A DNA stretch of 46,182 nucleotides from Sphingorhabdus sp. GTDB lineage: Bacteria > Pseudomonadota > Alphaproteobacteria > Sphingomonadales > Sphingomonadaceae. Below the pieces are notes generated by a model. That model was not told the DNA's origin. It did not search any database and worked only from the letters and a program-made list of their open reading frames with translations. The position numbers were made by a program, and so were the translations under genes. Where the stretch lies: the NCBI GenBank assembly GCA_023262005.1, contig JALREL010000177.1:1-46182 (forward strand), written 5' to 3'. Of the stretch, positions 25,980-34,555 are shown piece by piece. The number at the start of each line of letters is the position of its first letter. Positions within the stretch are counted from its first letter, which is position 1.

Positions 25980-25997
25980 TTTAATCGCGCGATTAAA
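25980..25997. promoter_or_regulatory. Palindromic operator TTTAATC-GCGC-GATTAAA upstream of the FMO-P450 operon
   Basis: This 18-base perfect palindrome lies 45 bases upstream of the FMO start and 90 bases upstream of the divergent outer-membrane gene. Both seven-base arms recur exactly at 34538-34555 before the racemase gene, differing only in the central tetranucleotide. That recurrence makes it a likely binding site for one dimeric regulator. The family of the regulator is unknown. Confidence 0.75.
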
Positions 25998-26020
25998 GTC
26001 TAGTCCCCTAAGACATATTC

Positions 26021-26040
26021 CTGTCCTGAATCGCGGACAG
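26021..26040. promoter_or_regulatory. Second inverted repeat CTGTCC-N8-GGACAG in the same gap
   Basis: Exact six-base arms at 26021-26026 and 26035-26040 lie between the FMO operon operator and the MipA/OmpV gene, 47 bases before its ATG. It could be a second regulator site for the divergent gene. No matching copy is seen elsewhere in the window. Confidence 0.3.
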
Positions 26041-26087
26041 TCTGCTAGTAAGACGCTTTGACGGGGGCGGATTGGATTGGAGTATTC

Positions 26088-26939
26088 ATGAATTTGCTGC
26101 GCCGCCTCCTTTTGGTGCCGCTGCTTGCGGTCACATTCCCGATTTCTGTTGCAGCGCAGGCTCCGCAAGGGCCGCCGCCGCCGGACGACAACAGCCTGAC
26201 CTTGGGGTTTGGGGGCGGTATTGCCCCCGAATATGAAGGCGCAAGCAACTATGGCTTCCAGCCGGGCGGCATCATCCAGGGCAAAGTGGATGGTTTCGAA
26301 TTCCAGGTGCGCGGAACCAATATCTATGTCGATCTCATCCGCGATTCGAACGACAGCGAGGTTAACCTGATCCTTGGCCCGGTGGCGCAACTTCGCTTTG
26401 ATCGCACCAGCCGCAGCGATCTTGATGATCCGCGTGTTGCATTGCTCGGCACGCGCAAGACTGCGGTCGAACTGGGCGGCTATGTGGGCATCGGCAAAAA
26501 AGGGTTCCTGATTCCACCCGCCAGCCTGACATTCGACCTCGCATTCGTGCACGATGTTGCAGGCGCGCATGACAGTTTCATCCTGACGCCCGGTGTTGCG
26601 CTTGCGAGCCCGGTGTCGCATCGCACCTTTGCGCGGCTGGGTTTCACCGCCGATTATGTCGGCAGCGGTTATGGCCGCACTTATTTCGATGTCGCACCGG
26701 TGATCTCACCCGGCCCTGTGCTGCAGCCCTATACAACTTCAGGGGCAGGTTTCAAAAGCGTGGGATCAACCCTGTTGCTGGCGCACGATTTCGGCGGCGA
26801 TAACCGCAAGGGTTGGGCGCTTTTCGGGCTGGCGGGCTATAAAAGGCTGCTGGGCCAATATGCCCGCAGCCCGATCGTTCGCGATGCAGGTGATGCTGAC
26901 CAGTTTCTGGCTGTGGCGGGGATCGCCTATAATTTCTGA
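26088..26939 (+). CDS. MipA/OmpV family outer-membrane protein
   Basis: The protein (283 residues from ATG 26088) has a signal peptide ending near SVAAQA. It continues with LTLGFGGGIAPEYEGASNYGFQPGG, the hallmark N-terminal strand of the MipA/OmpV beta-barrel family. Alternating strand patterns run to a C-terminal Phe (VAGIAYNF), as expected for outer-membrane insertion. E. coli MipA is a scaffold for murein enzymes; many relatives are simply barrels of unknown role. It is divergent from the FMO-P450 operon and shares its regulatory gap. It ends tail-to-tail with the GGDEF-EAL gene. Confidence 0.88.
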   Translation: MNLLRRLLLVPLLAVTFPISVAAQAPQGPPPPDDNSLTLGFGGGIAPEYEGASNYGFQPGGIIQGKVDGFEFQVRGTNIYVDLIRDSNDSEVNLILGPVAQLRFDRTSRSDLDDPRVALLGTRKTAVELGGYVGIGKKGFLIPPASLTFDLAFVHDVAGAHDSFILTPGVALASPVSHRTFARLGFTADYVGSGYGRTYFDVAPVISPGPVLQPYTTSGAGFKSVGSTLLLAHDFGGDNRKGWALFGLAGYKRLLGQYARSPIVRDAGDADQFLAVAGIAYNF

Positions 26940-26955
26940 GGGTGTTGCGGCTCGC

Positions 26956-32416: not shown

Positions 32417-32530
32417 GTTCAAATCCGGCATTTGGCCAAGAATTGCCATCGCTGCTTGTTTAGCCTTGAAACCCCGGATTGAGTCCAGCAATGCAGTTTG
32501 CAAGGTTGGCCGATAATCTGGAGAGAGCAA

Positions 32531-34492
32531 GTGAGCGAGCATCAGGACTGGTTCCCCGTCCCCGAAAGCGCAACAAAGGATACGCATTGCAGCGCTGCAG
32601 AATATGATCGGCTTTATGCCGGGAGTATCGCTAATCCTGACAGCTTTTGGGCGGAGCAGGCGAAACGGATAGACTGGCTCGCGCAGCCGACGAAGATCGG
32701 CAACTGGTCTTACGATCCGGTATCGATCAAATGGTATGAAGATGGCGTATTGAACCTGTGTCACAACGCGGTTGATCGTCATGTGGCCGCTGGCAAGGGC
32801 GATGCGATTGCCTTCATCTTCGAACCTGACGAACCTTCGAAACCAGCGCGCAAGGTCAGCTATAGCGAGTTGCAGGCCGAAGTGATCCGCATGGCCAACA
32901 CGCTCAAGAAAATGGGTGTAGCCAAGGGTGACCGGGTAACAATCTACATGCCTATGATCGTCGAAGGTGCGGTGGCCATGCTCGCTTGTGCCCGCATCGG
33001 AGCGGTGCATTCAGTGGTGTTCGGTGGTTTTTCGCCAGAAGCCCTCGCGGGACGTATCGAGGATTGTGCCAGCCGTTTCGTGATTTGTGCCGACAGCGGC
33101 GTGCGCGGGGGCAAGCATGTGCCGCTCAAATCCAATTTAGATGCGGCGCTGGAGCGTGTTTCAGGCGTCGAGGGCGTGCTGGTGATCGAACATACCGGTG
33201 ATCCCTGCAACATGACCCCGCATCGTGACCATTGGTATCATGAATATGGCGCAGATGTGCCTGCCGAATGCCCGTGCGAGCCGATGAATGCCGAAGACCC
33301 GCTGTTCATCCTCTACACCTCGGGTTCCACTGGCAAACCAAAAGGCGTGCTGCACACTACCGGTGGCTATTCGGTGTGGACCGCTACGACCTTCCATTAT
33401 GTGTTCGATTACAAGCCGGGTGAGGTCTTCTTCTGCTCGGCCGATATCGGCTGGGTCACGGGGCACAGCTATGTCGTTTACGGGCCGCTGCAAAATGGCG
33501 CGACCAGCCTCATCTTTGAAGGCATCCCCAGCTATCCAGACAATGGTCGTTTCTGGGACATTGTCGACCGGCACCAGGTCAACATCTTCTATACCGCGCC
33601 GACTGCCTTGCGCGCGCTGATGCGCGATGGCGATGGCCCGGTGAAGGCACGCTCACGCAAGTCGATCCGCCTGCTGGGAACGGTTGGGGAACCGATCAAT
33701 CCGGAGGCTTGGCGCTGGTACCATGCGACGGTGGGTGAGGGGAAATTGCCCATCGTCGATACCTGGTGGCAGACCGAAACCGGCGGCACGATGATCACCA
33801 CATTGCCCGGCGCGCATGGCATGAAGCCGGGCAGTGCAGGCCGCCCCTTCTTCGGCATCCGCCCGCAACTGGTTGATGCCGACGGGCAGGTCATTGCCGA
33901 CGAAGGCGATGCGCGCGGCGATGTATCGGGCAACCTCTGCATCACGCATAGCTGGCCGGGGCAGGCGCGCACCGTCTATGGCGATCATGACCGTTTCGTG
34001 CAGACCTATTTCTCCACCTATAAGGGTAAGTATTTCACCGGCGATGGCTGCCGCCGCGATGGCGATGGCTATTGGTGGATTACCGGTCGTGTCGACGATG
34101 TGATCAACGTTTCCGGCCACCGCATGGGCACAGCCGAGGTCGAAAGCGCGCTTGTGTTGCATGACCGCGTGGCCGAGGCCGCAGTCGTCGGATTCCCGCA
34201 CGAGATCAAGGGACAGGGCATTTATTGCTATGTCACGTTGAACGCAGGCGAAGAGCCAAGCGCGGAACTGGAAAGCGAACTTCGGATGCAGGTGCGGCAG
34301 GAAATCGGCCCGATCGCCTCGCCCGACCATATCCACTTCACCCCCGCTTTGCCCAAGACGCGGAGCGGCAAGATCATGCGCCGTATCCTGCGCAAGATTG
34401 CCGAGAATGATTTCGGTGCGCTGGGGGATACGTCGACCCTGGCCGATCCGAGCGTAGTCGACAGCCTGATCGAGGGGCGGCGGAACCGCTGA
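32531..34492 (+). CDS. acs: Acetyl-CoA synthetase
   Basis: The enzyme activates acetate to acetyl-CoA through acetyl-AMP. I chose GTG 32531, preceded by GGAGAGAG, giving 653 residues, the usual family length; a TTG at 32498 is less likely. Adenylate-forming motifs are [19 protein letters not shown] and [20 protein letters not shown], and the C-terminal [14 protein letters not shown] carries the lysine that is acetylated in relatives. Related enzymes also use propionate, but the overall sequence is typical of Acs. Acetate and acetyl-CoA metabolism links it to the nearby beta-oxidation genes. Confidence 0.95.
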
Positions 34493-34506
34493 ACCGAACT
34501 GGCTGC

Positions 34507-34535
34507 TTGTCGATAACTGAAGGAGCGGTTATGGC
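34507..34535 (+). promoter_or_regulatory. Likely promoter of the racemase gene
   Basis: TTGTCG (34507-34512) and TATGGC (34530-34535) are spaced by 17 bases. Transcription would begin near 34541, inside the palindrome at 34538-34555, so a bound regulator would sit on the start site and is expected to repress. Confidence 0.42.
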
Positions 34536-34537
34536 CG

Positions 34538-34555
34538 TTTAATCACGCGATTAAA
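34538..34555. promoter_or_regulatory. Palindromic operator TTTAATC-ACGC-GATTAAA upstream of the racemase gene
   Basis: Outer bases extend the arms to ten (CCGTTTAATC and GATTAAACGG, 34535-34558). The seven-base core arms are identical to those at 25980-25997. It lies 12 bases before the start codon, between the likely -10 and the ribosome site GGAGAGGA. Confidence 0.75.

Follow-up and report, generated by a model that had tools for sequence, protein, structure and literature searches.

A conserved palindrome as the very probable operator of a TetR-type repressor of lipid and alkane catabolism in Sphingorhabdus and related bacteria

Among the bacteria that break down pollutants and lipids, sphingomonads hold an important place. 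In a 46,182-nt stretch of Sphingorhabdus DNA (contig JALREL010000177.1, hereafter the window), one palindrome, TTTAATC-N4-GATTAAA, stands before two separate sets of catabolic genes, which raises the question of whether a single regulator reads both copies, which protein that regulator might be, and what pathway it would govern. Here we report that a repressor of the TetR type very probably docks at this palindrome and controls genes for burning fats and alkanes in Sphingorhabdus and its relatives.

The window contains two copies of the palindrome (symmetrised consensus nTTAATCGnnCGATTAAn), both of them exact matches, and no third site at up to three mismatches (Table 1). The two copies lie 8,558 bp apart, in agreement with a first-pass annotation of this DNA that had placed them about 8.5 kb from each other and just upstream of start codons; the distances to the start codons are 44 bp for the flavin monooxygenase (FMO) gene on the minus strand and 12 bp for the racemase gene. 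Operator 1 stands at the head of a gene set that runs leftward (21469-25935) and encodes an FMO, a P450, an enoyl-CoA hydratase and a GST-like protein. It may also control the divergent MipA-like gene, a possibility that gains no support from conservation here. The DNA between the boxed units includes a gene for a PAS-GGDEF-EAL protein without a box of its own (26956-29172) and a peptide chain release factor gene with PCRF and RF-1 domains (31289-32416), which is flanked by a pair of acyl-CoA dehydrogenase genes on one side and an acetyl-CoA-synthetase-like ligase gene on the other.

Table 1. Putative operators and neighbouring genes in the window
Feature	Position	Strand	Description and evidence
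Operator 1 (putative)	25980..25997	.	TTTAATCGCGCGATTAAA; FMO / MipA-like intergenic region; exact match
Operator 2 (putative)	34538..34555	.	TTTAATCACGCGATTAAA; ends 5' of racemase ATG; exact match
FMO-like flavin monooxygenase, first gene of leftward set	24574..25935	-	PF00743 5e-69; solved FMOs
Cytochrome P450	23341..24570	-	PF00067; 5h1z E 2e-117, 3rwl E 3e-101
Enoyl-CoA hydratase/isomerase (true start may be further in)	22461..23399	-	PF00378 1e-51
GST-like protein	21469..22497	-	PF13417 1e-10
Divergent MipA-like outer-membrane protein	26058..26939	+	PF06629 4e-28; called start 60 bp from operator 1
Alpha-methylacyl-CoA racemase-like protein (CoA_transf_3)	34568..35707	+	PF02515 2e-79; mycobacterial MCR/AMACR

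The names first given to these genes (FMO, P450, crotonase, GST and AMACR-type racemase) are borne out by Pfam domains and solved relatives, with crotonase corresponding to the enoyl-CoA hydratase. The racemase is closer to MCR/AMACR chains (391 bits) than to CoA-transferases of the same fold, scoring 360 bits to FAR and 123 bits to the first non-racemase chain, and the residues aligned to His126, Asp156 and Glu241 of MCR, which we take to be catalytic, are identical. When ranked against solved P450s, the window P450 has its best named matches in CYP153D17 and CYP153A7. Because of this resemblance to CYP153 alkane hydroxylases, the P450 points to alkanes or fatty acids and not to sterols, and a sterol pathway is left without support.

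Two exact sites in one window could be a coincidence, and a reading of this kind draws some encouragement from shuffled sequence: at up to three mismatches, shuffled windows average 0.71 sites, and two are reached in 15 of 100, so at this loose threshold the window is weak evidence by itself. Under an i.i.d. model, exact sites are much rarer, with 2e-5 expected per window and 0.001 per genome. In the Sphingorhabdus draft genome (2,552,430 bases in 234 contigs, 82% complete), there are 7 exact sites compared with 0 for a control consisting of the same pattern read backwards, and 23 sites at up to two mismatches compared with 3; this control suggests that about three of the 23 are there by chance. 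Across the genus, exact sites are present in all 37 sampled genomes, at 1 to 11 per genome, and the control again yields 0. Genomes from other families of the order hold an exact site in 0 of 24 cases.

The box is also kept before orthologs of the two window targets. A racemase ortholog is present in 42 of 45 genus genomes, and among the best 30 loci the start could be located in 28; every one of these 28 carries a box within 250 bp of the start (6 exact, 13 with one mismatch, 8 with two, 1 with three), compared with 7 of 3000 shuffles. The FMO gene is less widespread (6 of 45 genomes), and the box precedes it in all six, four times exactly and twice with one mismatch, three distant matches at 32% identity having been left out of the scoring. 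The inner TTAA arms are invariant, in contrast to the two central bases and to the spacing from the start codon, which ranges from 11 to 77 bp among racemase orthologs. At one locus (G029:C55:88171-89152) the racemase matches as two overlapping pieces, pointing to either a broken copy or a misassembly. Given the genome and genus counts against empty controls, and the conservation of the box before orthologous genes, we reject coincidence as extremely improbable.

What the sites have in common is best seen from the genes beside them. For the draft genome, we surveyed the DNA around each of the 21 sites that lie outside the window and, across the 23 sites, scanned 30 neighbouring proteins, a selection from among all those present. 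Counted by site, the neighbours include acyl-CoA dehydrogenases (6), thiolases (2), AMP-dependent acyl-CoA ligases (2) and short-chain dehydrogenases (SDR; 2), with one site each for the FMO-CYP153-like set, the racemase, another P450, a PQQ alcohol dehydrogenase, a GMC oxidoreductase, an Amidohydro_3 protein, an MPAB/Lcp oxygenase, a patatin/nitroreductase pair, an MFS transporter with a DUF7065 protein, and an NMO-like protein. The site at C17:4211 has no convincing target gene. The concern that the motif might prove frequent and random across the genome is thus answered by site counts well above the control and by a placement mostly 5' of lipid-type catabolic genes. The proposal that a shared dyad site defines a regulon stands, but its restriction to a methyl-branched compound is too narrow for a set that includes acyl-CoA dehydrogenases, thiolases, acyl-CoA ligases, alcohol dehydrogenases and P450s; within this broader lipid set, the racemase figures as one conserved member.

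A wider set of 112 sites from this genome and its relatives, in which genes were called by a simple gene caller and the loci depend on the regions fetched, places 108 sites between -110 and +250 bp relative to the start of a called gene and the other 4 outside that range; 4 of the 112 lie inside ORFs. The commonest targets are thiolase (14 genomes), acyl-CoA dehydrogenase (13), P450 (7) and nitroreductase (6). Several other genes also stand near boxes. In four genomes from three genera, the box is followed by a gene for an AAA-type ATPase that looks MoxR-like by eye (L091:4979-5839, L103:5091-5942, L114:5076-5921 and L145:3768-4613). A phage-lysin-like protein with glycosyl hydrolase 108 and peptidoglycan-binding features is divergent to a boxed acyl-CoA dehydrogenase in two genomes (L020:2650-3234 and L137:377-976). 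TonB-dependent-receptor-like genes lie near some boxes, identified by eye at L112:5156-8122 and confirmed by Pfam at L032:1369-4485, and hint at regulated uptake.

The first-pass annotation could match the motif to no known regulator and had proposed a search for TetR, GntR or MarR genes carrying the same box. The systematic search covered TetR genes as its sole class, and there it led to a protein that fits. The complete genome G001 contains 16 TetR_N matches, 14 of them above the cut-off; in this genome and in G025, an exact box heads an operon of thiolase, SDR, hydratase and TetR genes, with TetR as the last gene, and the loci of the other TetR genes of G001 showed no convincing box at up to four mismatches. 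The corresponding protein of the draft genome (G000:C5:2724-3362) is encoded behind a hydratase and an SDR gene; a boxed thiolase is found on C109, which ends before TetR, and the full operon is visible in relatives only. The nearest named relatives of this TetR gene are Sphingorhabdus records at 96% identity.

Association of the box with the TetR operon was examined in 80 named loci around the TetR gene, of which 61 could be scored by a pattern-located thiolase start with at least 100 bp upstream. In 61 of 61, a box at up to three mismatches is found no more than 150 bp from where the thiolase gene starts (30 exact, 20 with one mismatch, 4 with two, 7 with three), compared with 34 of 6100 shuffles. 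The 19 unscored loci comprise 12 that are incomplete and 7 without a pattern match, and 6 of those 7 still contain a box at one to three mismatches; the seventh, the full-length named locus L247, holds no box at up to three mismatches in 12.6 kb.

The regulator and the motif also tend to be found in the same genomes. The sequence TTAATCGNNCGATTAA occurs in 16 of 149 family genomes, representing 9 of 91 genera, and the control in 0. A TetR match at E 1e-20 or better is present in 25 of the 149; 19 of these are at least 59% identical and include all 16 motif genomes, and the other six are 29-46% identical. TetR is thus found in 16 of 16 motif genomes and in 3 of 133 motif-less ones, 130 of the 133 being without it (Fisher's exact test, 8e-19 by genome and 1e-11 by genus, values that are overstated by the shared ancestry of the lineages). 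Relaxed counts, allowing up to two mismatches in the 12-base core, give 29 sites compared with 1 in the control for the TetR-bearing genome G143 and 25 compared with 1 for G165, with moderate enrichment only in G079 (22 compared with 8). Fifteen genomes without a close TetR ortholog, two of which have a distant relative, hold 15 sites in total compared with 11 in the control. A close ortholog is found in 10 of the 91 genera, which shows a regulatory divide within one family.

A segment of the helix-turn-helix (HTH) region, LNSALVKYYFGNK, is invariant in 18 aligned TetR orthologs. The co-occurrence rule fails in genus g85, where G124 and G189 carry a TetR with the same segment and no excess of sites (2 compared with 5 and 3 compared with 1, at up to two mismatches). 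Related TetR proteins at 38-46% identity (L185, L186, L187, L188, L191, L192 and L194) have a different recognition segment, several of them beside acyl-CoA dehydrogenase or hydratase genes, and are probably sister regulators with other operators.

The g85 genomes and the restriction of the search to TetR genes leave some room for a different reading, in which the box is read by a different dimeric regulator, perhaps of the GntR, IclR or MarR type, that was inherited in the same lineages and has TetR as just one of its targets. We regard this as unlikely, since the box heads TetR's own operon at every scorable locus, none of the 16 motif genomes lacks TetR, and no regulator is present among the 30 proteins scanned beside the draft-genome sites.

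The protein itself has the sequence and fold of the TetR family. Its TetR_N domain scores 27.1 bits (Pfam cut-off 24), its C-terminal domain matches TetR_C_9 at 4.6e-57, and its predicted model (mean pLDDT 89) is all-helical, with nine helices, an HTH and a ligand domain. The model matches 2QTQ and 2RHA, the structures of Saro_1072 from Novosphingobium aromaticivorans, at 68-69% identity and a TM-score of 0.84-0.90; by sequence (E 2.5e-87), Saro_1072 is an ortholog. These entries are described only as a predicted DNA-binding regulator. Among the matches listed from open-licence PMC literature, we found no operator or regulon for Saro_1072, and no description of a regulon for this TetR and palindrome.

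In our best reading, the protein would repress lipid catabolism globally, in the manner of PsrA, FadR and FadP, without being any of these proteins. Each of the three is described as one regulator over many scattered fatty-acid degradation operons (PMC5343134), and the same arrangement is proposed here. Identity with PsrA or with Bacillus-type FadR is rejected by NCBIfam scores far below the cut-offs (26.7 bits compared with 300, and 33.2 compared with 200). Bacillus FadR (PDB 3whb, 3whc with stearoyl-CoA), which acts in fatty-acid catabolism, shares the TetR fold (TM-score 0.63-0.68 to the model) at 18-21% identity and is not an ortholog by the NCBIfam model. The same source places proteobacterial FadR in the GntR family and reports FadP to be unique to betaproteobacteria (PMC5343134); it is on this reported distribution that FadP is set apart. 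EdcR of Caenibius tardaugens is a TetR repressor from a sphingomonad, for which PMC8700777 gives one estrogen catabolic cluster, the proposed operator TnnCnnTACnAnTnGTAnnGnnA and the domain TetR_C_11; in contrast, the protein described here has TetR_C_9 and would act at many loci through the box TTAATCGnnCGATTAA, a different sequence that excludes the EdcR operator as its identity.

On the strength of the excess of the motif, its placement and conservation, the box at the TetR operon and the co-occurrence of the two, all read from sequence, we consider it highly likely that the palindrome is the operator of the TetR at G000:C5:2724-3362. Bound as a homodimer to the box near their start codons, this TetR would block some 20 transcription units, its own thiolase-SDR-hydratase-tetR operon among them, that serve the activation, oxidation and beta-oxidation of acyl chains and alkanes. 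A lipid-derived ligand, most likely acyl-CoA, would release it. In a fold search with the model, RutR chains rank above fatty-acid FadR chains, so the gene content alone points to an acyl-CoA ligand.

The position of the box bears on the direction of control. Before racemase and thiolase genes it usually ends 11 to 35 bp from the ATG, which would suit a steric repressor. The 22 of 23 draft-genome contexts examined share no -35 element at a constant distance from the box, so we do not claim that the box doubles as a -10 element. The variable distance to the start codon among racemase orthologs would also be compatible with an activating role of the bound TetR, either throughout or at some operons only, with repression at the rest. 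Such a role seems quite improbable, since a box this close to the ATG would be expected to block polymerase and not to recruit it, and TetR proteins are mostly repressors.

Taking these observations together, it is quite likely that the Saro_1072-type TetR acts in Sphingorhabdus, Novosphingobium, Blastomonas and related Sphingomonadaceae as a hitherto undescribed repressor with global control of lipid and alkane catabolism, through some 20-30 operators in richer genomes. It would link beta-oxidation with CYP153/FMO oxidation, with the racemisation of methyl branches and, in four genomes, with a MoxR-type AAA-ATPase gene. If true, this would name a master switch for the beta-oxidation genes of sphingomonads and assign a role to an orphan crystal structure released in 2007, and the operator would provide a sequence rule that predicts lipid-catabolic genes in many genomes.
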